Shown here one piece after another: positions 1,744 to 39,249 of a DNA stretch of 64,000 bases. The position numbers were made by a program, and so were the translations under genes. How positions within the stretch are numbered: the first letter of the stretch is position 1; each line of letters opens with the position of its first letter. Origin of the DNA: Oscillospiraceae bacterium (lineage in GTDB: Bacteria > Bacillota > Clostridia > Oscillospirales > Oscillospiraceae); assembly GCA_015067765.1 (NCBI GenBank), contig SVLV01000006.1, positions 1 to 64,000 on the forward strand, written 5' to 3'. The notes beneath the pieces were generated by a model that saw only the letters and a list, made by a program, of their open reading frames with translations, was not told the DNA's origin and did not search any database.

Positions 1744-2852
1744 TCCTTGTTCTCCTTCAGTTCCTGTTCTGCCAAAGTCAGTGCGGAGGCCAGCACCGCA
1801 TCCATATCATAATAGCGGTATTCACCCAGGCGGCCGCCAAAGATCACCTGCTGTTCCTTATCGGCCAGCTGGCGATAGCGGGCATAGAGTTCCGTGTTCT
1901 TCGGATCATTGATGGGATAGTAGGGTTCCACTCCCGGGGTCCACTCAGAACTGTATTCCCGAGAAATTACGGTCTTGGGCTGCTGACCAAACTCAAAGTG
2001 CTTGTGCTCAATAATGCGGGTATAGGGGGTCTCACGATCCGTGTAGTTCACCACCGCATTGCCCTGGAAGTTGGGCATATCCAGTACTTCGGTCTCAAAC
2101 CGGACAGAGCGATACTCCAGCGGACCATAGCAGCAGTCGTAGAAGCTGTCGATAGATCCGGTGTAGATCACTTTGTCTGCCTGCGCATTCCACTCATCGC
2201 GGCGGGCCAGATAATCCTCACCCAGGCGCACCTCGACGCCCTCCAGCATCCGCTCCACCATGGCGGTATAGCCGCCCACGGGAATGCCCTGATGATTGGC
2301 ATTGAAATAGTTGTTGTCAAAGGTCAGGCGGACCGGCAGACGGCGGATGATGAACGCAGGCAGCTGATCACAGGGACGACCCCACTGCTTCTCGGTATAC
2401 CCCTTCACCAATCGCTCATAGATGTCCTTTCCCACCAGCGCAATGGCCTGCTCCTCCAGATTGGCGGGCTCACTGATCCCCGCCTCCTGCCGCTGCTGAC
2501 GGATTTTCTCCTCCGCCTCAGCCGGAGTCGTCACGCCCCACATCTTATAAAAGGTGTACATATTAAACGGCAGGGAGTACAGCTCTCCGTGGTAATTGGC
2601 CACAGGACTATTGATGTAGCGATTGAACTGAGCAAAACGATTGATGTAATTCCAAACCTTCTCGTCGTTGGTATGGAAAATATGGGCACCGTACTGATGA
2701 ACGGCGATCCCCTCCACCTCTTTGGTATAGATGTTTCCTCCGATATGATCTCTCCGGTCAATGACCAGAACAGATCTTCCGGCCTCCTTGGCCTGCTGGG
2801 CAAATGCCGCACCGAACAGACCGGCACCCACCACCAGATAATCGTATTTCAT
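1740..2852 (-). CDS. glf: UDP-galactopyranose mutase
   Basis: This flavoenzyme interconverts UDP-galactopyranose and UDP-galactofuranose, the donor for galactofuranose in surface glycans. The protein (370 residues) begins MKYDYLVVGAGLFGAAFA, an FAD Rossmann motif, and continues with IDRRDHIGGN and the family hallmark QYGAHIFHT. Later come the conserved GYTEKQWGR and the FGGRLGEYRYYDMD C-terminal flavin motif. The start at 2852 is chosen because AGAGGAGA lies just upstream and the FAD motif begins there; the open frame extends 20 codons further up without family similarity. It is the first gene of a three-gene minus-strand group. No large polysaccharide cluster surrounds it in this window. Confidence 0.95.
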   Translation of the reverse strand: MKYDYLVVGAGLFGAAFAQQAKEAGRSVLVIDRRDHIGGNIYTKEVEGIAVHQYGAHIFHTNDEKVWNYINRFAQFNRYINSPVANYHGELYSLPFNMYTFYKMWGVTTPAEAEEKIRQQRQEAGISEPANLEEQAIALVGKDIYERLVKGYTEKQWGRPCDQLPAFIIRRLPVRLTFDNNYFNANHQGIPVGGYTAMVERMLEGVEVRLGEDYLARRDEWNAQADKVIYTGSIDSFYDCCYGPLEYRSVRFETEVLDMPNFQGNAVVNYTDRETPYTRIIEHKHFEFGQQPKTVISREYSSEWTPGVEPYYPINDPKNTELYARYRQLADKEQQVIFGGRLGEYRYYDMDAVLASALTLAEQELKENKE

Positions 2853-3036
2853 ATCTCTCTTCTCCTCTTGGCAGTTCCCACAGGGAACTTTCCACAAAAA
2901 CATCAACGGCACGCGACCTTTTCGTCATAAATGGTCACAATATTCCATGGTATACCTATTTTAACATAGACCATCCTGCCGCACAAGTGAATTTTCCGCA
3001 GGTTTTTCATCATTTGGCACAATGTGCCGCCTGCCA

Positions 3037-14468: not shown

Positions 14469-14607
14469 AGTCCTCCGCGAGCAGCTGCGGAGCCGGTCTC
14501 GCGCAATGGATACCCACGAATCATGTCAGGCGGGGAACCGAGCAGCATTAAGAGGGATCATCCATGTGCCGCGAGGGTGCCGGCTCTGTGGCTGCACGCG
14601 GAGGACT
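14469..14607 (+). ncRNA. ffs: Signal recognition particle RNA (4.5S/scRNA)
   Basis: The 5' strand AGTCCTCCGCG (14469-14479) pairs with CGCGGAGGACT (14597-14607), and the molecule folds as one long rod. The helix 8 signature TGTCAGG-CGG-GGAA-CCG-AGCAGCA-TTAAG (14524-14552) contains the GGAA tetraloop and the Ffh-binding internal loops. At about 139 bases it is shorter than the 270-base Bacillus scRNA and lacks a recognisable Alu domain. The RNA binds Ffh and targets ribosomes with nascent membrane proteins. Its position just before dnaX matches the Bacillus order. The T-rich stretch after it (ATTTTTATTT) may give partial termination before dnaX. Confidence 0.9.
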
Positions 14608-28529: not shown

Positions 28530-28934
28530 ATGTCTGTTACCTATATGACCCGCCAGCAGCGGGCGGTACTGCGCTGCATGGAGACCGCGCAGCACGGCTG
28601 TGCCACCGCAGCGGAGTTGGCTGAGCAGCTGCATCAGCAGGGTCAGTCTGTTGGTTTGACCACGGTATACCGACAGTTGGAAAAATTGGCTGCGCAGGGT
28701 CTGGTCCACAAGATCGTCACCGACGAGGGGGCCTACTATCAATATTGCAACTGCCAGGAGCACAGAGATTGCTTCCTGCTCAAATGTGAGCGCTGCGGCA
28801 GCATCTCCCATTTGGACTGCACCCATCTTGGTCACCTGTACAGTCATCTGCTGACGGATCACGGGTTTGCCATCAACCCCCGGCGCACCCTGTTTTACGG
28901 ACTGTGCCGCAACTGTCAGGAGGCACAGGGATGA
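28530..28934 (+). CDS. zur: Fur family regulator, probably zinc-responsive (Zur)
   Basis: This 134-residue protein has the Fur winged-helix domain (about 1-80, with GLTTVYRQLEKLAAQGLVHKI as recognition region) and the C-terminal dimerisation domain. It has the structural zinc site from two CxxC motifs, CERCG (86-90) and CRNC near the end, and metal-sensing residues such as the H/C-rich YCNCQEHRDCF segment. ATG at 28530 is chosen rather than 28524 because GGAGG lies one base from the latter. The gene overlaps the zinc-binding lipoprotein gene by four bases (ATGA), which supports zinc rather than iron or peroxide as signal. Confidence 0.88.
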   Translation: MSVTYMTRQQRAVLRCMETAQHGCATAAELAEQLHQQGQSVGLTTVYRQLEKLAAQGLVHKIVTDEGAYYQYCNCQEHRDCFLLKCERCGSISHLDCTHLGHLYSHLLTDHGFAINPRRTLFYGLCRNCQEAQG

Positions 28935-29905
28935 AAAGACGCCTGTTTTCCCTGCTACTGGCACTGATGGTGCTGTTCTCTCTCACCGCCTGCGGCAAAA
29001 ATCCGGCAAAAGATGATATCAAGCTGCAGGTTGCCTGTTCCCTGTTTCCCTACTATGATTTTGTCCGGGCCATCGGCGGCACTTTCGTCCAGCCTCAGCT
29101 GCTGATCCCCGCCGGCCGGGAGACTCACAGTTTTGAGCCCACTCCTCTGGATGTGATCAAAATGAGTCAGGCCGATGTGCTGATCTACAACGGCGGTGAA
29201 GGGGAACTGTGGGTGGAAGAAATCCTCTCTGCCTCCGGAGAGAACATTGGGCAAGTGGTGTGCATGATGGACCACGCCCAAGCACTCATCGAGGAGGAAG
29301 TGGTAGAGGGTATGGAGCACGACCACACCCATGAACATGCTCACCAGCACGGTGAGCATTGCGATCACGACGAGATCACCTACGATGAGCATATCTGGAC
29401 CTCTCCTCTGCAGGCGATGACTCTGTGCCGGGTTATCTGTGAGGCGCTCTGCACGGCAGATCCCGACCATAGCAGCGATTATCGGGCCAATCTGGAGGGA
29501 TATCTGGAGCAACTGAAGCAGTTGGATACCAGCTTTCAGCAGGTGGTACAGCAGCGCAGCCGGGATCTGCTGGTGTTTGGTGACCGCTTCCCGCTGGTCT
29601 ACTTCTGTCAGGCCTACGGCCTGAATTACCGGGCCGCGTTCCATGGCTGCGCCAGCGACACGGAGCCGTCCCTTACCACACTGAAATATCTCATTGATCG
29701 GGTACGGGAGGAACAGATCCCCGTGGTCTATACCATCGAACTCAGCAGCCGGAAAATTGCCGAAGCAATTGCCGAGACCACCGGCGCAAAAGTTCTGACA
29801 TTCCACTCCTGTCAAACGGTGACACGGCAGGAATTCGATGCCGGAGCTACCTATCTGAGTCTGATGGAACAAAATGTATCTGTACTGAAGGAGGGTCTGT
29901 GCTGA
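28931..29905 (+). CDS. znuA: Zinc ABC transporter substrate-binding lipoprotein (ZnuA/AdcA-like)
   Basis: This 324-residue lipoprotein binds zinc outside the membrane and delivers it to the permease. It has a lipobox LTAC near residue 22, the conserved RETHSFEPTPLDV block whose His is a zinc ligand, and a His/Asp-rich loop HDHTHEHAHQHGEHCDHDE typical of zinc-specific cluster A-I proteins. Downstream DEHIWTSPLQA supplies the second His, and IELSSRKIAEAIAETTGAKVL the C-terminal lobe. It overlaps both zur and the ATPase gene, forming the operon zur-znuA-znuC-znuB. Confidence 0.93.
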   Translation: MKRRLFSLLLALMVLFSLTACGKNPAKDDIKLQVACSLFPYYDFVRAIGGTFVQPQLLIPAGRETHSFEPTPLDVIKMSQADVLIYNGGEGELWVEEILSASGENIGQVVCMMDHAQALIEEEVVEGMEHDHTHEHAHQHGEHCDHDEITYDEHIWTSPLQAMTLCRVICEALCTADPDHSSDYRANLEGYLEQLKQLDTSFQQVVQQRSRDLLVFGDRFPLVYFCQAYGLNYRAAFHGCASDTEPSLTTLKYLIDRVREEQIPVVYTIELSSRKIAEAIAETTGAKVLTFHSCQTVTRQEFDAGATYLSLMEQNVSVLKEGLC

Positions 29906-30609
29906 TGGACACTTTACTCACCTGTCAGGATGTCTCTCTGGGTTATGAGGGGCGTCCGGTCTGGGAACATCTGAATTTGACAGTTCATCGGGGAGACTAT
30001 ATCTGTATCGTGGGCGAGAACGGCTCCGGTAAGTCCACTCTGCTCAAGAGTCTGCTGGGTCTTTTGCCGCCTCTGGCCGGCCAGATCACGCTGTCCCCGC
30101 AGCTCAAGCGCGGCGCCATTGGCTATCTGCCCCAGCAGACCCGCGCTCAAAAGGATTTCCCGGCCACCGTCAATGAGGTGGTCCTCTCCGGCTTTCTCAA
30201 CGGCCGAGGTCCTCACTTCTTCTATACCGCCCGGGAAAAGTCTCAGGCCCTGCAAAACATGGGAAAGCTGGGCATTCTGGAGCTGAAAGAGCGTTGCTAC
30301 CGGGAACTCTCCGGCGGTCAGCAGCAACGGGTCCTGCTGGCCCGTGCGTTGTGCGCGGCCGGTGAGGTGCTGATTTTGGATGAGCCGGTCACCGGTCTGG
30401 ACCCTGCCGCCGCGCTGGATCTGTACCGGACGCTGCAATATCTCAACCGGCAGGAAGGTCTGGCCATCATTATGGTCACCCATGATATGCCCAATGCCCT
30501 GCGCTATGCCACCTCCCTGCTGCACGCCGGAAACGGCAGCTATTTCTTCGGCTCTGTGGAGGAGTATCTGGCCTCCCCCTACGGAAAACGGTTTGGAGGT
30601 GTGCGCTGA
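29905..30609 (+). CDS. znuC: Zinc ABC transporter ATP-binding protein
   Basis: This 234-residue ATPase energises zinc import. It has Walker A GENGSGKS (about 38-45), Q-loop in YLPQQTRAQ, signature LSGGQ in ELSGGQQQRVLLARAL and Walker B LILDEPVTGLD, with the switch His in MVTHD. ATG at 29905 overlaps the znuA stop (TGATG); GGAGGG is 9 bases upstream, while a GTG at 29899 is too close. It is coupled to znuB by another four-base overlap. Confidence 0.95.
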   Translation: MDTLLTCQDVSLGYEGRPVWEHLNLTVHRGDYICIVGENGSGKSTLLKSLLGLLPPLAGQITLSPQLKRGAIGYLPQQTRAQKDFPATVNEVVLSGFLNGRGPHFFYTAREKSQALQNMGKLGILELKERCYRELSGGQQQRVLLARALCAAGEVLILDEPVTGLDPAAALDLYRTLQYLNRQEGLAIIMVTHDMPNALRYATSLLHAGNGSYFFGSVEEYLASPYGKRFGGVR

Positions 30610-31424
30610 TGGCTTTGCTGCTGGAAATGTTTACCTATCCCTTTATCCTCCGTGCCTTTATCGTGGGCATTCTGGTCTCCCTGTGCGCCGCCCTACTGGG
30701 CGTCCCGTTGGTACTGAAGCGCTATTCTATGATCGGCGACGGTCTCAGCCACGTATCTTTCGGTGCTCTGGCCATCGCTATGGCCTGCGGCTGGGCTCCG
30801 CTGCCGGTGTCCATCCCAGTTGTGGTGGTTGCCGCCCTTTGCCTCCTGCGAATCACCGAACGCAGCCCCCTCGGTGCGGATGCCGCCATCGCCGTCACCT
30901 CCGCATCGGCACTGGCACTGGGCATTCTGGTTACCAGTCTCACCACCGGCATGACCACGGATGTGGACAGCTATATGTTCGGCTCTATTCTGGCCATGGA
31001 TCGGGCAGATGTCGCTCTGTCGGTGGGTCTGTCTGTCTCCGTACTGGTGTTGTATCTCCTGTTCTATCACAGATTATTTTCCATCACCTTTGACGAGAGT
31101 TTCGCTCAGGCCACCGGCGTAAAGGTCGGCCTCTACAACACCCTGCTCTCTGTTCTGACGGCGCTGACCATTGTGCTGGGCATGCGCATGATGGGTGCCA
31201 TGCTGATCTCCAGTCTGGTGATTTTCCCTGCACTGACCGCCATGCGGCTGAAAAAGAGTTTCCGGGGCGTGGTGCTGCTGGCAGGAGTCCTTTCTGTGGT
31301 CTGTTTCTGCTTGGGGCTCACCGGCTCTTACCTGTTGTCTACCCCCGTGGGCGCCACAGTTGTTTTGGTCAATCTGACCGCATTTCTGTTCGCTTGTATC
31401 TTCTCCCGAATCAGCCGCCGATGA
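30609..31424 (+). CDS. znuB: Zinc ABC transporter permease
   Basis: This 271-residue membrane protein of the cluster A-I (Mn/Zn) permease family has about eight membrane segments. Typical blocks are LLGVPLVLKRYSMIGDGLSHVSFGALAIA (about 24-52) and MGAMLISSLVIFPALTAMRL (about 196-215). Its ATG overlaps the znuC stop (TGATG). It is the last gene of the zur-znuACB operon, followed by a terminator. Confidence 0.95.
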   Translation: MALLLEMFTYPFILRAFIVGILVSLCAALLGVPLVLKRYSMIGDGLSHVSFGALAIAMACGWAPLPVSIPVVVVAALCLLRITERSPLGADAAIAVTSASALALGILVTSLTTGMTTDVDSYMFGSILAMDRADVALSVGLSVSVLVLYLLFYHRLFSITFDESFAQATGVKVGLYNTLLSVLTALTIVLGMRMMGAMLISSLVIFPALTAMRLKKSFRGVVLLAGVLSVVCFCLGLTGSYLLSTPVGATVVLVNLTAFLFACIFSRISRR

Positions 31425-31449
31425 TTTTCACAACAAGAAACTTCCGTGC

Positions 31450-31499
31450 AAAAACCGCCGCTCTGCCGCCTAAAACAGGCCGGAGCGGCGTTTCTTTTT
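31450..31499 (+). terminator. Terminator of the zinc uptake operon
   Basis: CGCCGCTC (31456-31463) pairs with GAGCGGCG (31483-31490) around an inner GCC-rich stem, followed by TTTCTTTTT. The next 140 bases up to the ilv promoter are AT-rich and hold nothing recognisable. Confidence 0.85.
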
Positions 31500-31637
31500 A
31501 AGAAACTTTTTCTTTTCTCCTGACAGTTTCTTCCTGTTTTTCTCCTCTTTTTTGTTGGTTTTGCATAGAGCTCTCCAGTCCGCCTCTTTTCTGTTCATAA
31601 AAATACACAAAAATCCCATTTTTTTGAAAAATTTTTA

Positions 31638-31665
31638 TTGCCTTTTTGAATGGTGGGAGTATAAT
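31638..31665 (+). promoter_or_regulatory. Promoter of the ilv operon
   Basis: TTGCCT (31638-31643), a 16-base spacer and a consensus TATAAT (31660-31665). The start near 31672 gives a leader RNA of about 350 bases before ilvB, containing the leader peptide and attenuator. Confidence 0.75.
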
Positions 31666-31772
31666 GTGGGGTAAGCAGACAAGTGTTTGCGCCAACAATT
31701 GTCCCCCGGACCGCGGCGGCTCAGCCGTTTCCGATCCGCGAAGACAGCCCAACAGGGGCACGGGAGAGACGT

Positions 31773-31904
31773 ATGAATACGATGAAGCAGATCGTTAACA
31801 TGATTGGCCGCATTATTCTGGTTCTGGTACAGATTATTATTGTACGGAAAGAGAATAGTGTGTTTGGTCATGCTGTCAGCGAGGAGTGCACCTCCGCCTG
31901 TTAA
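31773..31904 (+). CDS. Ilv leader peptide (Ile/Leu/Val-rich)
   Basis: This is a 43-codon open frame with a good ribosome site (GGGAG, 6 bases upstream of ATG). Residues 14-24 read IILVLVQIIIV, so ten of eleven codons specify branched-chain amino acids (ATT, CTG, GTT, GTA), the end products of the operon behind it. It sits between a promoter and a strong terminator that precedes ilvB. This is the layout of the leader peptides of the enterobacterial and actinobacterial ilv operons. The peptide itself is expected to have no function; ribosome stalling on these codons when charged tRNAs are scarce would be the signal. Translation is inferred. Confidence 0.82.
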   Translation: MNTMKQIVNMIGRIILVLVQIIIVRKENSVFGHAVSEECTSAC

Positions 31905-31977
31905 CCGGTTTCGTGTTCACCCATTAACAAGCAACGAAAGCTCATGACCCGACACCGGGAGTCATGAGCTTTTCTTA
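31799..31977 (+). promoter_or_regulatory. Transcription attenuator of the ilv operon
   Basis: Four segments fit classical attenuation. Segment 1, CATGATT (31799-31805), can pair with segment 2, GGTCATG (31866-31872), through five Watson-Crick and two G-U pairs. Segment 2 is exactly complementary to segment 3, CATGACC (31943-31949). Segment 3 lies in the left arm of the terminator, AAAGCTCATGAC (31937-31948), which pairs perfectly with segment 4, GTCATGAGCTTT (31961-31972), followed by TCTTATT. A ribosome stalled on the first Ile codons (31812 on) would cover segment 1, free segment 2 to hold segment 3 and let transcription continue. The pairings are seen; the mechanism is inferred. Confidence 0.75.
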
Positions 31978-32024
31978 TTCCCCGGCATACACCATTATAT
32001 TTTATAGAAAGGACAGACCCGCAT

Positions 32025-33656
32025 ATGGCAATGACAGGCGCGCAGATTTTGATGGAAGGATTGCTTCGGGAGAACGTAGACCGCATTTTCGGATATGCCG
32101 GCGCTACGATCTGTGCAGCCGTAGACGTCCTGCGCAGCACTCCTGAGCTTGGCTATACGCTGGTCCGTACCGAGCAGAATGCCGGCCATATGGCTTCCGG
32201 CTATGCACGTGTCACCGGCAAGGTGGGTGTGTGTATGGTCACCTCCGGTCCCGGTGCCACCAATTTGATCACCGGCATTGCCACCGCCTATCTGGACTCC
32301 ATCCCTATGGTTGCCATTACCGGTCAGGTCCCCTCCCATCTTCTGGGCCGCGATATCTTTCAGGAAATTGATATCACCGGCGCTGTGACTCCCTTTATCA
32401 AGCATTCCTATCTGGTGAAGGACGCCGCTCAGCTCCCCCGCATCATCAAGGAGGCCTTCCACATTGCCTCCACCGGCCGTCCCGGCCCGGTACTGATCGA
32501 CATTCCCAGCGACATTCAGGAGCAGGTGGTGGAGGACGTGGTCTTCCCCCAGCAGGTGGAGCTTCGCGGCTACCATCCCAGCGTCCGCGGCAACGACCGT
32601 CAGATCCATCTGGTCGCCACCTCTATCTCTCAGGCGGAGCGGCCTTTGATCTGTGCCGGCGGCGGTGTATTTCTGGCGGACGCCCAGCAGGAACTGCGGC
32701 AGTTTGCTGAAGCCACCGGCATCCCCGTGGTAACCACCATGATGGGCCTTTCCCTTCTGCCCACCGGCCACCCGCTGAACATGGGCATGATCGGATCTTA
32801 CGGCAATGCCTCTGCCAACTATGCACTGGCAAAGTCGGATCTGTTGATTCTCATCGGCTCCCGGGCTGCCGACCGCGCCATCGTCTCCCCGGAGGAGATC
32901 CAGCGGCGGATGCCCTCCATCCACATCGATGTGGACCCCGCCGAGATCGGCAAAAACATGCAGGCAACTGTGCCCCTGGTGGGCAATGTGAAAGTAATCC
33001 TCGGTCAGTTGCTGGAAAAGGAGATTGCTCCCGATTGTCAGATTTGGAGAGAATTGCTGCAGGAAAAACGCAGAGAACAGCTGGCTCGCACCTGGCCTGA
33101 AAAACCGGGCAGCGTGTTCCCCGGCCGCCTCTTCCGTCTGCTGGGTGAACGGTTGGAGAAGGACGCCATCGTCTGTGTAGATGTGGGGCAGAACCAGTTG
33201 TGGGCCTGCCAGCACCTGTATCTGGATGGCGCACGGCTGCTGACCAGCGGCGGCTTGGGCACCATGGGCTACTCCCTGCCGGCCGCTATTGGCGCCAAGC
33301 TGGGTTGTCCGGACCGGCAGACCGTGGTGATCTGCGGTGACGGTTCCTTCCAGATGATGATGAATGAACTGGCCGCCATCCGGGCTGCCGGGTTGCCCAT
33401 CAAAATCGTGATGATCCGAAACGGTGTGCTTGGCCTTGTCCATCAGCTTCAGACCCACGCTCCCTACCACGGAGCATTCGGTGTTCATTTGGAGGGTGAT
33501 CCCGACTTCATCCAATTGGCTGCCGCCTATGGCATCGATACCATCCATGTGGATCAGGAAGAGCAGGTTCCCTCGGCTCTTGACCAGTTGCTGGCCCATC
33601 CCGGCAGCTGCCTGCTGATCGCCGACACGGACAGCAGTTGTCTGACCAGTGATTAA
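32025..33656 (+). CDS. ilvB: Acetolactate synthase large subunit, first copy
   Basis: This ThDP-dependent enzyme condenses pyruvate with pyruvate or 2-ketobutyrate, the first common step to valine, leucine and isoleucine. The 543-residue protein has the catalytic Glu 50 (LVRTEQNAGH), GRPGPVLIDIP, and a ThDP motif starting CGDGS (437-441). The motif ends RN (465-466) instead of the usual NN, and the following LGLVHQLQ replaces the LGMVRQWQ seen in the second copy. It is shorter and clearly diverged from the second copy at 34.2 kb, so the two may differ in substrate preference or feedback control. A small subunit gene follows by 12 bases. Confidence 0.92.
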   Translation: MAMTGAQILMEGLLRENVDRIFGYAGATICAAVDVLRSTPELGYTLVRTEQNAGHMASGYARVTGKVGVCMVTSGPGATNLITGIATAYLDSIPMVAITGQVPSHLLGRDIFQEIDITGAVTPFIKHSYLVKDAAQLPRIIKEAFHIASTGRPGPVLIDIPSDIQEQVVEDVVFPQQVELRGYHPSVRGNDRQIHLVATSISQAERPLICAGGGVFLADAQQELRQFAEATGIPVVTTMMGLSLLPTGHPLNMGMIGSYGNASANYALAKSDLLILIGSRAADRAIVSPEEIQRRMPSIHIDVDPAEIGKNMQATVPLVGNVKVILGQLLEKEIAPDCQIWRELLQEKRREQLARTWPEKPGSVFPGRLFRLLGERLEKDAIVCVDVGQNQLWACQHLYLDGARLLTSGGLGTMGYSLPAAIGAKLGCPDRQTVVICGDGSFQMMMNELAAIRAAGLPIKIVMIRNGVLGLVHQLQTHAPYHGAFGVHLEGDPDFIQLAAAYGIDTIHVDQEEQVPSALDQLLAHPGSCLLIADTDSSCLTSD

Positions 33657-33668
33657 GGGGGTGCCGAT

Positions 33669-34154
33669 ATGAAAAAGACCATTTCCATTCTGGTGGAAAA
33701 CCGGGCGGGTGTCCTCAACCGAATCACCAGTCTCTTCTCCCGCCGCGCTTTTAACATTGAGTCTCTGGCGGTAGGTGTTACCGACGATCCCTCTCTCTCC
33801 CGCATTACTATGATCGTGGACAGCGGCAACAGTGTGGTGGAGCAGGTGGAAAAGCAGCTGCACAAGCTGGTGGAGGTCATCAAGGTCCGCACACTGGACG
33901 AAACTTCCCTGATCGGCCGGGAACTGATGCTCATCAAGGTGGGCGCCACCGCCCGAACCCGGGGCGATATCATGACCATCTGCGAGATCATGGGTGCCCG
34001 GGTCAGCGACATCTCCCCCAGCACCATGACATTGGAACTGTCGGACACCACCGATCGCCTCAATACATTTGAGGATATGCTGCGGCCCTACACCATTCAG
34101 GAAGTAGCCCGCACCGGTGTCATCGCCCTGCAGAAGGGTGCCGGCAAAATTTAA
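33669..34154 (+). CDS. ilvN: Acetolactate synthase small subunit, first copy
   Basis: This 161-residue regulatory subunit carries an N-terminal ACT domain (about 3-76, beginning KKTISILVENRAGVLNRITSLFSRRAFNIESLAVG) and a C-terminal domain (about 85-158) typical of IlvH/IlvN. It activates the large subunit and mediates valine feedback inhibition. The ACT domain keeps the N-x-x-G-V-L-x-R-I effector-loop pattern. It follows the first ilvB copy and is followed by the second pair after 41 bases containing a small hairpin. Confidence 0.95.
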   Translation: MKKTISILVENRAGVLNRITSLFSRRAFNIESLAVGVTDDPSLSRITMIVDSGNSVVEQVEKQLHKLVEVIKVRTLDETSLIGRELMLIKVGATARTRGDIMTICEIMGARVSDISPSTMTLELSDTTDRLNTFEDMLRPYTIQEVARTGVIALQKGAGKI

Positions 34155-34195
34155 CCAATCCCCGGTTTGAAACCGAGTTATAGAGGAGGAATGAC

Positions 34196-35899
34196 ATGAA
34201 GATTCGTGCGACCCAGGCCATCTTTGAATGCCTGCTGGAGCAGGAGGTGGATACCATATTCGGTTATCCCGGTGGTACCATCATCAATGTATACGACGAA
34301 CTCTATCGCTATCAGGATAAGATCCGTCATATCCTGACCGCCCATGAGCAGGGCGCTGCCCACGCGGCCGACGGCTATGCCCGCTCTACCGGCAAGGTGG
34401 GTGTGTGCTTCGCCACCTCCGGTCCCGGTGCCACCAACTTGACCACCGGCATTGCCACCGCCTATCTGGACTCCTCCCCCGTGGTGTTCCTCACCTGTAA
34501 TGTGGCGGAAAACCTGCTGGGCCGTGATGCCTTCCAGGAGGTGGACATCACCGGTATCGCTATGCCGATCACCAAGGCGACCTTCCTGGTCCGTGATCCG
34601 CAGGACATCCCCAATGTGATGCGCCAGGCCTTTGCCGTGGCCGCCGGTGGCCGTCCCGGCCCCGTACTGGTGGATATCCTGAAGAACGCCACCAACTTGG
34701 ACCAGATGATTGACTACGAATTCATCCCCGCTCAGGAGCAGAAGAGCTGCGACAGCATCCGCCGCCTGAATGCCAGCCATGAGCTGCAGGCCCCTCAGGT
34801 GGACCGTCAGGATCTGGATATTCTGCTGGAGATGATCGAAGAGGCCAAGCATCCGCTGCTGATCTGCGGCGGCGGCGTGGTCCGCGCCAAGGCAGACGCG
34901 GAGTTCCGCACCTTTGCTGAGCGGATGGATTCTCCGGTCGCCATCACCCTGATGGGCGGCGGCGGCTTCCCCGGCAACCACCCTCTCACCACCGGCATGA
35001 TCGGTATGCACGGTTCCCGGGCCTCCAATGTGGCTGCCAGCGAGTGTGATCTGCTGATTGCTGTGGGCTGCCGCTTCTCTGATCGCGTGGCGTCTCATCC
35101 TGCATCCTTTGCCAAGCAGGCCAAGATCGTGCAGATCGATATTGACCGCGCCGAGATCGACAAGAACGTGCTGACAGATCATCACATTATCGGTTCTGCC
35201 AAGCAGGTGCTGGCTCTGCTGAATGAGAAGCTGCCCCAGTACGATCACAAGGAGTGGAAGGAATATATTCTCCCCATGCGTTCCCCCTCCACCGCAGCAG
35301 ACAGTCCCACCCTGACCCATCAGCAGATTTTGGACGTTCTGCAGAATCAGATGCCGCAGGATGCTGTGATTGCCACCGATGTGGGCCAGCACCAGATGTG
35401 GGCGATCAAGTACCTGCATTTCACCTATCCCGGTCAGCTGCTGACCAGCGGCGGCTTCGGTACCATGGGCTTTGGTTTGGGTGCCGCCATCGGCGCTCAG
35501 ATGGGCAACCCCGACAAGCGGGTCATCCATGTGACCGGTGATGGCTGCTTCCGCATGAACTGCCACGAGCTGGCCACCGTTCAGCACTATAATCTGCCCA
35601 TTATCAGTATCATCTTCAATAACGGCACCCTGGGCATGGTCCGCCAGTGGCAGTCCCTGATTTATAACCAGCACTTCTCTGCCACCACCATGGATCGCGG
35701 TCCCGATTTTGTGAAACTGGCCGAGGCCTATGGCCTGAAGGGTTATCGCGCCTCCACCCGCCAGGAACTGGAAGCCGTAATGCAGGAAGCCTTCGCCTGC
35801 GGCTGCGGCGCCGTAATCGACTGCACCATCGACATTGATGAGATGGTCAGCCCCATGGTGGCCGCCGGCAAACCCATTACCGAATTTCTGCTTAGTTAA
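34196..35899 (+). CDS. ilvB: Acetolactate synthase large subunit, second copy
   Basis: This 567-residue catalytic subunit has the complete canonical motifs: catalytic Glu 51 (LTAHEQGAAH), the ThDP motif GDG (448-450) to NN (475-476), and LGMVRQWQ right after it. It is the more standard of the two isozymes in this operon. The ATG at 34196 follows GAGGAGG; the ATG at 34191 is out of frame and stops at once. It is followed 12 bases later by its own small subunit gene, so each large subunit has a dedicated partner. Confidence 0.96.
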   Translation: MKIRATQAIFECLLEQEVDTIFGYPGGTIINVYDELYRYQDKIRHILTAHEQGAAHAADGYARSTGKVGVCFATSGPGATNLTTGIATAYLDSSPVVFLTCNVAENLLGRDAFQEVDITGIAMPITKATFLVRDPQDIPNVMRQAFAVAAGGRPGPVLVDILKNATNLDQMIDYEFIPAQEQKSCDSIRRLNASHELQAPQVDRQDLDILLEMIEEAKHPLLICGGGVVRAKADAEFRTFAERMDSPVAITLMGGGGFPGNHPLTTGMIGMHGSRASNVAASECDLLIAVGCRFSDRVASHPASFAKQAKIVQIDIDRAEIDKNVLTDHHIIGSAKQVLALLNEKLPQYDHKEWKEYILPMRSPSTAADSPTLTHQQILDVLQNQMPQDAVIATDVGQHQMWAIKYLHFTYPGQLLTSGGFGTMGFGLGAAIGAQMGNPDKRVIHVTGDGCFRMNCHELATVQHYNLPIISIIFNNGTLGMVRQWQSLIYNQHFSATTMDRGPDFVKLAEAYGLKGYRASTRQELEAVMQEAFACGCGAVIDCTIDIDEMVSPMVAAGKPITEFLLS

Positions 35900-35911
35900 G
35901 GGGGTATCACA

Positions 35912-36478
35912 ATGAAAAAAGAATTTGACACCACCCATAAGCTCTACACTCTTGTGCTGTTGGTGGAGGATATCCCCGGCGTGCTGAGTCAGGTATCCAG
36001 ACTCTTTTCCCGCAAGGGTTACAACATCGAGTCCATCGTCTCCGGCGCCACGGATCGCCCCGGTATCACCCGCATCTCCATTGAACTTCTGGGTAATGAG
36101 CTGACCATCGAGCAGATCGCCGCCCAGTGCCGCAAGCTTCTTCCGGTTCAGGCCGTCAAGATTCTGGACGAGGAGACCTGCATCCGCCGCGAGACCGCCT
36201 TCATCAAGGTCCGCACCGAAAACCGTACCACCCGGGATGAGATCATCCAGCTGGTAAATATTTTCCACGCCAAAGTCATTGATGTGGGCCGCGAGGCACT
36301 GACCATCTATGTGTTTGGCAACCAAAGCAAAGTCAAGGCTCTGATCGACATGCTCTCCGATTTCGGCATTCTGGAGATTGCCAAGACCGGTACCATCGCC
36401 ATCGAGCGGGGCAGCGACACCATTTATGATAACAACAAATTACGGGAGGAATATTATCATGGCAAGAATGTATTATGA
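35912..36478 (+). CDS. ilvN: Acetolactate synthase small subunit, second copy
   Basis: This 188-residue regulatory subunit has an ACT domain (about 10-85) with [28 protein letters not shown] and a C-terminal IlvH-type domain (about 90-165). The typical Asn of the ACT loop (N-R-A/P-G-V-L in the first copy) is Asp-Ile-Pro here, which may alter valine binding. A C-terminal extension of about 25 charged residues overlaps the start of ilvC by 20 bases in another frame, suggesting translational coupling. Confidence 0.94.
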
Positions 36479-37478
36479 GAAGGATTGTGATCTGGGCAAG
36501 CTGGACGGCAAGAAGATCGGCATCATCGGTTACGGCTCTCAGGGTCACGCACATGCTCTGAACCTGAAGGAATCCGGCTGTGATGTCTGCGTTGGCCTGC
36601 GTCCCGGCAGCAAGAACTGGGCCAAGGCCGAGGCCGCCGGCCTGAAGGTCGCCTCCGTGGCCGACACCACCAAGTGGGCCGACATCGTGATGCTGCTGGT
36701 CAACGATGAGGCTCAGGCCGCTGCCTACAAGACCGACATCGGCCCCAATCTGGAACCCGGCATGGCTCTGATGTTCGCCCATGGCTTCAACATCCACTTC
36801 AAGCAGATCGTTCCTCCCTCCTTCGTGGACGTTCTGATGATCGCTCCCAAGGGCCCCGGCCACACCGTCCGTTCCACCTACGTCAACGGCAAGGGCGTTC
36901 CCTGCCTGCTGGCTGTGGAGCAGGATTACACCGGTAAGGCTCACGACATCGGCCTGGCCTATGCTGCCGGTATCGGCGGTGCCCGCGGCGGCGTGATGGA
37001 GACCACCTTCCAGGATGAGACTGAGACCGACCTGTTCGGTGAGCAGGCCGTTCTGTGCGGCGGCGTTGTGGAACTGATGAAGCTGGGCTTCGAGACTCTG
37101 GTGGAAGCCGGCTACGCTCCCGAAAATGCTTACTTTGAGTGCATCCACGAGATGAAGCTGATCATCGACCTGATCAACAAGGGCGGCATCGCCATGATGA
37201 ACTACTCCATCTCCGACACCGCTGAGTACGGTGAGTATATCACCGGCAGCCGCATCCTGCCCCGCGAGGAGACCAAGCGCCGCATGCGCGAGGTTCTGGC
37301 CGATGTTCAGGACGGCGTGTTCGCCGGCAAGTGGATTGCTGAGAACCAGGTGGGCCGCACCTACTTCAACGCCAAGCGCGCCCAGATGGCCAAGCATCCC
37401 ATGGAGATCGTGGGTGCCGAGCTGCGCCGCAACATGCTGTGGGGCGAGGACGACGATCCCGATACCGCTTCCAACTGA
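36459..37478 (+). CDS. ilvC: Ketol-acid reductoisomerase
   Basis: This 339-residue class I (short) enzyme converts acetolactate or acetohydroxybutyrate to the dihydroxy acids using NAD(P)H and Mg2+. It has the [17 protein letters not shown] Rossmann start (about residues 25-41), PKGPGHTVR, and the Mg2+-binding acidic helix [21 protein letters not shown]. In the beta2-alphaB loop the sequence is LRPGSKNW, typical of NADPH-preferring forms. ATG at 36459 follows GGGAGGA; upstream open frame is not conserved. It overlaps the second ilvN. Confidence 0.97.
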
Positions 37479-37587: not shown

Positions 37588-39249
37588 ATGAGAAGTGACG
37601 TCATCAAAAGCGGCATCCCCGCCGCTCCCAACCGCTCTTTGCTGTATGCTCTGGGCTATACAAAGGAGGAGCTGTCCCGTCCGATGATCGGCGTGGTCTG
37701 CTCCCACAATGAGATCGTGCCCGGCCATATGAATCTGGATAAGATTGCCGAGGCTGTCAAGGCCGGCATTCGTGCCGCCGGCGGTACTCCCGTGGAATTC
37801 CCGGCCATCGCCGTCTGCGACGGCATTGCCATGGGCCATGTGGGCATGAAGTATTCCCTTGTTACCCGTGATCTGATCGCCGACTCCACGGAGGCCATGG
37901 CTATGGCTCACCAGTTTGACGGTCTGGTCATGATCCCTAACTGCGATAAGAACGTGCCCGGTCTGCTGATGGCCGCCGCGCGTGTCAATATTCCCACCAT
38001 CTTCGTCTCCGGCGGTCCTATGATGGCCGGCACCATGAATGATGGCCGCCGCACCTGCCTGAGCCATATGTTTGAGGCTGTGGGCGCCTACTATGCCGGC
38101 AAGCTGGATCAGTCCGGTCTGCAGGAATATGAGGAGAATGCCTGCCCCACCTGCGGTTCCTGCTCCGGTATGTATACCGCCAACTCCATGAACTGTCTCA
38201 CCGAGGCCATCGGCATGGGTCTGAAAGGCAACGGCACCATTCCTGCTGTCTGGTCCGCCCGTCTGCGTCTGGCCAAGCATGCCGGCATGCAGATCATGGA
38301 TCTGGTGGCCAAAAACATCCGTCCCCGCGATATTATGACAGAGGCTGCCTTCCGCAACGCCGAAACGGTGGATATGGCTCTGGGCTGCTCCACCAATACC
38401 ATGCTGCACCTGCCCGCTATTGCCCACGAGTGCGGCATTGAGCTGAGCTTCGATATGTCCAATGAGATCAGCGATCGGACCCCCAACCTGTGCCATCTGG
38501 CCCCCGCCGGCAGCACCTATATGGAGGATCTGGAGCAGGCCGGCGGTGTCCACGCCGTGATGGCAGAACTGGCCGGTGCCGGTCTGCTGGACACCTCTGT
38601 TCTGACCGTAACCGGTAAGACTTTGGCCGACAATCTGCAGGGCGTGGTAAACCGGGATCCTGAGATGATCCGCCCTGTTACCAATCCCTGGAGCAAGAGC
38701 GGCGGCATCGCCGTTCTGAAGGGCAATCTGGCTCCCGACGGCTGCGTGGTGAAGCAGGCCGCCGTCGCCCCCGAGATGATGCAGCATACCGGTCCCGCCC
38801 GCGTCTTTGACAGCGAGGACGAGGCCATTGCCGCCATCTATGCCGGCAAGATCGTAGCCGGCGACGTGGTGGTCATCCGCTACGAGGGCCCCAAGGGCGG
38901 CCCCGGCATGCGGGAAATGCTCAACCCCACCTCTGCCATCGCAGGCATGGGACTGGACAAGGATGTGGCTCTCATCACCGACGGCCGCTTCTCCGGAGCC
39001 ACCCGCGGTGCCTCCATCGGTCATGTGTCCCCCGAGGCTGCCTCCGGCGGTACCATCGCACTGGTGGAGGAGGGCGATATGATCGCCATCGATATCCCCG
39101 CGCACACCATCTCTCTACAGGTCTCCGATGAGGAGCTGGCCCGCCGCCGTGCCAACTGGATCTGCCCCGAGCCCAAGATCAAGACCGGTTATCTGGCCCG
39201 CTACGCCAAGCTGGTCTCCTCGGCTGACCGGGGTGCTATTCTGGAATAA
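37588..39249 (+). CDS. ilvD: Dihydroxy-acid dehydratase
   Basis: This 553-residue iron-sulfur enzyme dehydrates the dihydroxy acids to the 2-keto acids of valine and isoleucine. The Fe-S ligands are visible in [17 protein letters not shown] and in [19 protein letters not shown], and the C-terminal [23 protein letters not shown] is diagnostic. AAGGAGG lies 8 bases before the ATG. It is the fourth enzymatic step coded in the operon; ilvE and leucine genes are not in this window. Confidence 0.97.

Follow-up and report, generated by a model that had tools for sequence, protein, structure and literature searches.

Organisation of the leader region and the ilv operon

Analysis of the window, the whole 64,000 nucleotide stretch of Oscillospiraceae DNA studied here, revealed a leader ORF of 43 codons plus a stop codon upstream of an ilv operon. 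The gene order 3′ of the leader, named by NCBIfam, was ilvB-ilvN-ilvB-ilvN-ilvC-ilvD (Table 1). An earlier note, made from the letters alone, had placed this 43-codon frame, with IILVLVQIIIV at residues 14–24, ahead of ilvB, and had located CATGATT (31799), GGTCATG (31866), CATGACC (31943) and the right arm of a terminator (from 31961); the coordinates of the ORF and all four positions were confirmed on the sequence. The two tandem ilvB-ilvN pairs (32025–36478) had large subunits that were 41% identical, and the first pair has been lost in several relatives.

Table 1. Features of the leader region and the ilv operon in the window
Feature	Position	Strand	Basis
Promoter-like site, TTGCCT-16-TATAAT	31638–31665	+	10/12 consensus positions matched
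SD-like GGGAGAG of the leader	31762–31768	+	Sequence check; SD-ATG pairs also in relatives
Leader peptide ORF, 43 codons, MNTMKQIVNMIGRIILVLVQIIIVRKENSVFGHAVSEECTSAC	31773–31904	+	Sequence; relatives
Regulatory codons IILVLVQIIIV, residues 14–24	31812–31844	+	Sequence; chance test; relatives
Segment 1, CATTATTCT, overlapping the first Ile-Ile-Leu codons	31811–31819	+	Aligned leaders
Segment 2, portion pairing with segment 1, AGAATAGTG	31852–31860	+	Aligned leaders
Segment 2, antiterminator 5′ arm, core GGTCATG (31866–31872) and upstream TGTTT	31859–31872	+	
Segment 3, CATGACC and loop bases CGACAC extending the pairing with segment 2	31943–31955	+	
Intrinsic terminator stem-loop, segments 3:4, T-rich to about 31979	31937–31973	+	
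ilvB (first), acetolactate synthase large subunit	32025–33656	+	TIGR00118, 584 bits over cut-off
ilvN (first), small subunit	33669–34154	+	TIGR00119
ilvB (second), large subunit	34196–35899	+	TIGR00118, 669 bits
ilvN (second), small subunit	35912–36478	+	NCBIfam
ilvC, ketol-acid reductoisomerase	36459–37478	+	Start set by alignment to NF004017
ilvD, dihydroxy-acid dehydratase	37588–39249	+	TIGR00110

The ABC-transporter gene upstream of the leader region ended at 31424, and the first ilvB began at 32025. A GC-rich inverted repeat followed by a T-run was seen by eye 3′ of the upstream gene (31460–31500) and probably terminates transcription of the metal-type ABC transporter genes (28904–31424). 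Elsewhere in the window a bacterial small SRP RNA was found at 14490–14589 (RF00169, 72.9 bits).

The leader had been described as standing between a promoter and a terminator. The terminator was upheld, as RNA folding and the aligned leaders of relatives both placed an intrinsic terminator 5′ of the first structural gene. On the promoter side there was a promoter-like site, weak taken alone because 0.8 such sites are expected by chance in the stretch; TATAAT was present at the equivalent position in many of the aligned relatives. A consensus terminator scanner called a hairpin on the − strand only. RNA folding gave the + strand form, which the scanner missed because its loop, read with the T-run, exceeds the scanner limit. 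The entire leader folded better than 200 of 200 dinucleotide shuffles (z −4.05).

Ten of the 11 codons in IILVLVQIIIV were Ile, Leu or Val codons. When 31425–32024 was shuffled by dinucleotides, a short ORF with at least 10/11 such codons arose in 2 of 5000 shuffles and one with at least 9/11 in 10 of 5000. Across both strands of the whole window, the leader was the sole ATG ORF of 15–80 amino acids with at least 8/11 Ile/Leu/Val.

The earlier statement that no T-box motif is present agreed with scans of the window against Rfam 15.0. No T-box, nor any other Rfam family (the ppGpp riboswitch included), reached the gathering score at the leader, and a relaxed scan at E ≤ 5 gave three sub-threshold matches there that were meaningless. 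A T-box or riboswitch identity for the leader was rejected on the basis of these scans. The host genome, which is 79% complete, contained 12 T-box matches elsewhere, five of them over the cut-off and none on the contig of the window.

Leaders in related genomes and their reading frame

Relatives were collected in two ways. An ilvB search of genome contigs gave 164 named loci, of which the best 80 were used; the nearest relatives among these best 80 were Oscillospiraceae (best identity 76%), and the leader was present upstream of ilvB in 24 of the 80. In addition, a search pattern of 21 bases from segment 2 was run over genomes. Within the same family, one genus carried the pattern in 40 of 86 genomes (43 places), and a backward control pattern gave zero there in every listed row. 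The window's own genus carried it in 5 of 32 genomes, one of these by chance. An even sample of the family had the pattern in 13 of 400 genomes (14 places, 4 of these being leaders). The backward control matched 17 listed genomes, so that three-mismatch matches outside the two genera were at chance level.

There were 57 distinct pattern matches, and 47 of these, with at least seven Ile/Leu/Val in 10 codons, were kept as leaders. The remaining 10, with at most 6/10 and no ilv gene behind them, were dropped from all counts. The Ile/Leu/Val run that the earlier note expected an alignment of related leaders to reveal was thus kept in 47 of the 57 matches. In the genus rich in the pattern, 41 of the 43 places were read, and all 41 are within the 47 leaders; two three-mismatch places of that search (G532 C24 and G555 C3) stand outside the counts.

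The first ilv gene 3′ of the leader was the first ilvB in 34 of the 47 leaders and the second ilvB in 11, with no ilvB match in two, L128 and L173. In L128 (1400–1, reverse strand) the leader directly preceded ilvC rather than ilvB. The open frame following the leader of L173 (600–1221) looks like the start of the second ilvB fused to an ilvN-like tail, which could stem from a deletion within the locus or from faulty assembly. L029 and L162 had the leader before the second ilvB, the first pair being reduced to remnants in between, and L161 had a truncated first ilvB behind its leader. The first gene behind the leader therefore varies, and the switch stays with the promoter. Two leaders, L142 and L164, were present in one genome (G520), before the second and the first ilvB respectively; this assembly is 73% complete, so strain mixing is possible.

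The way the search was built guaranteed an ATG frame open across the Ile/Leu/Val codons in 47/47 leaders, and the frame was therefore tested separately. The ATG located 4–13 bases after the strongest SD-like motif was picked with the frame ignored, and in all 43 leaders scored it shared the frame of the Ile codons; the four unscored leaders comprised two that lacked an SD-ATG pair and two that lacked the Ile motif. Segment 2 was read as NSxFGHA, or nearly so, in 41 of the 47 leaders and in another frame (NRIVRLVM-type) in six (L136, L137, L144, L152, L172 and L173), which indicates that it is the RNA that is conserved there and not the peptide tail. Variability by codon position in the aligned leaders gave no third-position excess in any part of the peptide, so that the evidence for coding comes from the frame test together with the codon content. 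Relative to the GGTC of segment 2, the position of the stop codon among the 47 leaders ranged from 3 nt upstream to 87 nt downstream. The leader ORF, which has an SD-like motif and lies between the putative promoter and the first gene, looks translated, and its translation is predicted.

Alternative helices and the proposed attenuator

Helix counts were made on the 47 aligned leaders, each cell being one pair in one leader. Three mutually exclusive helices, 1:2, 2:3 and 3:4, recurred, for which double changes gave strong support in 3:4, moderate support in 2:3 and thin support in 1:2. The earlier note had proposed these three pairings, and the helices held, with two amendments: CATGATT (31799), its segment 1, was lacking in the aligned relatives, where the conserved pair was CATTATTCT (31811–31819) with AGAATAGTG (31852–31860), and 2:3 was longer than it had stated. 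The compensatory changes it had asked for in 2:3 and 3:4 were found. In a tree built from 33 ilvB fragments, the tested pairs had 1 to 4 independent changes each (starred branches), none of which went against pairing and none of which was significant alone. The helices looked the same in an initial set of 26 leaders.

The 3:4 helix was paired in 94.4% of 611 cells, and 11 of its 13 pairs contained double changes (70 cells, compared to 16.8 in shuffles). The 1:2 helix (CATTATTCT/AGAATAGTG) was paired in 98.3% of 419 cells. Double changes were present in 4 of its 9 pairs (4 cells) and a one-column slide gave 3 pairs (5 cells), so that the double-change counts of 1:2 were not above those of the slide. 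L164 and L037 had CACCGTTCT/AGAACGGTG in this helix.

The 2:3 helix extended beyond GGTCATG/CATGACC into the terminator loop; one U-C mismatch column was excluded from the structure. It was paired in 94.4% of 515 cells compared to 22.7–48.0% in slid versions, a comparison that favours the structures because they were derived from these same sequences. Double changes occurred in 20 cells (shuffled mean 7.6) and in 4 of 11 pairs, a number of pairs reached by 17 of 500 shuffles; a slid version also had double changes in 3 pairs, but in 6 cells only. Pair 69-201 was C-G in 16 leaders, U-A in 14, G-C in one and U-G in one, unpaired in 14 and a gap in one. As this pair lies in the terminator loop, it is explained by 2:3 only. 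The unpaired leaders include those with another terminator type, GGTTCGACC, and leaders of that type retain either GGUC opposite GACC or a register with weak G-U pairing. Single cases were L131 (CUUUUGGUCAUG/CGUGGCCAAAAG), L148 (GUGUUC/GAACAC), and L151 and L170, which had C-G for U-A.

The GGTC of segment 2 was invariant in 47/47 leaders. Folding of full leaders gave 1:2 in 47/47 and 3:4 in 46/47. When the stalled state was mimicked by folding the sequence from just 5′ of segment 2 to before segment 4, at least six pairs of 2:3 formed in 47/47 leaders, compared to 277 of 940 when segment 2 was shuffled. The 2:3 stretch of the window alone was no more stable than shuffles (z 0.05), and support for 2:3 thus comes from comparison and not from energy.

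We interpret the leader as a ribosome-mediated transcription attenuator responding to branched-chain amino acids, to which we assign a probability of about 0.92. The comparison of leaders supports the classical attenuation that the earlier note had proposed: directly established were the ORF with its codons and the three alternative helices, together with the conservation of these features, and from the classical model we infer the stalling, the termination, the amino-acid response and the dominant amino acid among the three. RNA polymerase would start near 31670 with a ribosome trailing on the leader ORF. A shortage of Ile-, Leu- or Val-tRNA would stall the ribosome at codons 14–24, where it would mask segment 1; 2:3 could then pair, the terminator would be blocked and the ilv operon would be transcribed. 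With all tRNAs charged, the ribosome would move on, leaving segment 2 masked or refolded with segment 1, and the 3:4 terminator would end transcription near 31975. In the absence of translation, 1:2 and 3:4 would form and transcription would likewise end. Because the first regulatory codons serve as segment 1 and the position of the stop is not fixed, 1:2 presumably re-forms behind a fast ribosome.

Other readings of the same leaders were weighed. A terminator under the control of a ligand or RNA-binding protein (a riboswitch or an antiterminator protein), with an incidental ORF, would fit the near invariance of segment 2 and the lack of coding bias by codon position. That invariance is, however, accounted for by the role of segment 2 in two helices, and a ligand or protein switch has against it the Ile/Leu/Val run of the 47 leaders, the SD-ATG found in frame wherever it was scored and the lack of any Rfam riboswitch match at the leader; we regard it as very improbable. 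It is still less probable that the conserved tail NSxFGHA itself stalls the ribosome. Although 41 leaders read this stretch in the same frame, the six that read the same RNA in another frame led us to drop this candidate; L075 and L132 stop before GHA, and block B varied to the same degree at each codon position.

The same very slight probability as for peptide arrest applies to a leader that is degenerate or constitutive, its terminator setting a low basal level and nothing being regulated. Compensatory changes in mutually exclusive helices argue against it, as does the retention of leaders where the first genes have been lost. L048, in which the leader was apparently lost and the terminator kept, speaks in its favour; it was the one case of what the earlier note had named as counting against attenuation, a terminator kept without the Ile/Leu/Val codons, which the 47 leaders retain.

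Known leader systems and T-boxes at the same gene

The attenuator reading has known counterparts. The enterobacterial ilvGMEDA and ilvBN leaders have multivalent Ile/Leu/Val codons, 1:2/2:3/3:4 logic and a terminator before the first gene. The window leader follows the same codon, helix and terminator logic, with no sequence kinship claimed. It differs from these leaders in that its first regulatory codons are segment 1 and its stop is at no fixed place; the stop codon of trp leaders, in contrast, has a fixed place.

Among Bacillota, the premise that mostly T-boxes or CodY are used was fair, yet leader-peptide attenuation of ilv had already been reported. According to the available portions of PMC5794164, the attenuator peptide of Staphylococcus aureus ilvD-leuABC-ilvA is experimentally supported by mutations and amino-acid limitation, and ilv leader-peptide attenuation is predicted in Lactococcus and Streptococcus. 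The S. aureus leader as described there resembles that of the window in being a short ORF with Ile/Leu codons, a terminator and alternative folds at a Bacillota ilv operon, a likeness that concerns layout. By the same account, its peptide has 26 amino acids with Ile3Leu2 and scattered Leu, precedes ilvD and acts on top of CodY, and its antiterminator pairs with the poly-U tail, unlike that of the window leader. Actinobacterial ilvB attenuators, as outlined in the abstracts and excerpts of PMC1262725, PMC10272879 and PMC11857589, also have a leader ORF upstream of ilvBNC and attenuation; they belong to another phylum and have other sequences. Histidine leader peptides are predicted in Bacillota, five Eubacteriales species included (excerpts of PMC9413887), and leader peptides replacing T-boxes have been noted for hisS in bacilli (excerpts of PMC2965389). 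From these excerpts, such leaders likewise replace T-boxes or repressors in Gram-positive bacteria, in Clostridia too, and concern histidine rather than branched-chain amino acids. Motif catalogues, in the portions available of PMC8632094, list ilvB and ilvD motifs from Leptospira and Veillonella but not the window leader. A search of the openly accessible literature, partly as abstracts and excerpts, found no report of a branched-chain leader of this kind in Oscillospiraceae or other clostridia. The mechanism is known, and a new branched-chain leader-peptide case in Clostridia is well supported by the sequence comparisons. It would place such an attenuator in gut Clostridia, where T-boxes are the usual reading, and the 47 aligned leaders with the search pattern can be used to annotate the small ORF and the operon control in uncultured genomes.

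The main interest of the leader lies in its exchange with the T-box (RF00230) inside one family. At the ilvB of relatives the T-box serves the same gene with the same output, a terminator before ilvB; it reads tRNA directly through one specifier codon and is absent at the window leader. Of the 80 named loci, 60 were scanned with Rfam, and the remaining 20 were all leader loci. A T-box was present just 5′ of ilvB in 47 of the 60, and the 13 without it were four leader loci (L034, L053, L075 and L099) and nine others. Two of these nine (L077 and L104) had a T-box-like GGTGGTACCACGG, and seven had neither element. L064, L067, L082, L093, L101 and L103, with no T-box and no leader 5′ of ilvB, formed one clade on the IlvB tree, and in several of them ilvB lay closely behind another gene. 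L048 (bases 2500–3000) retained a terminator before ilvB, with no Ile/Leu/Val leader and no T-box found; its position inside the leader clade makes it an apparent leader loss.

A quick IlvB tree of 85 rows, with long outgroup branches, required at least three changes between leader and T-box, or five with the no-element state counted, the changes being counted without direction. Its 25 leader rows fell into groups of 17, 6 and 2. As these rows share the sequence of segments 1 and 2, repeated invention is unlikely, and transfer of the leader with the operon, or its loss in T-box lineages, appears more likely.

The specifiers of the 47 ilvB T-boxes look like CTC (Leu) in 31, GTC (Val) in 11 and ATC (Ile) in five. 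A script on its own gave 23, 7 and 4, misreading 2 and leaving 11 unread; the assignment was then made by eye from 50-base strings, with the position rule taken in part from a legend in PMC5794164. The amino acid sensed at the ilvB T-box thus appears to differ among relatives. We tentatively suggest, as a possibility somewhat short of even odds, that at one operon, and within one family, the T-box and a ribosome sensor multivalent for Ile, Leu and Val have taken each other's place several times, with a homologous leader moving between lineages with the operon and the signal alternating between a single tRNA (for Leu, Val or Ile) and the full set of three. With close relatives that carry a T-box at the same gene and specifiers that apparently differ, the family is a natural experiment on sensor replacement.
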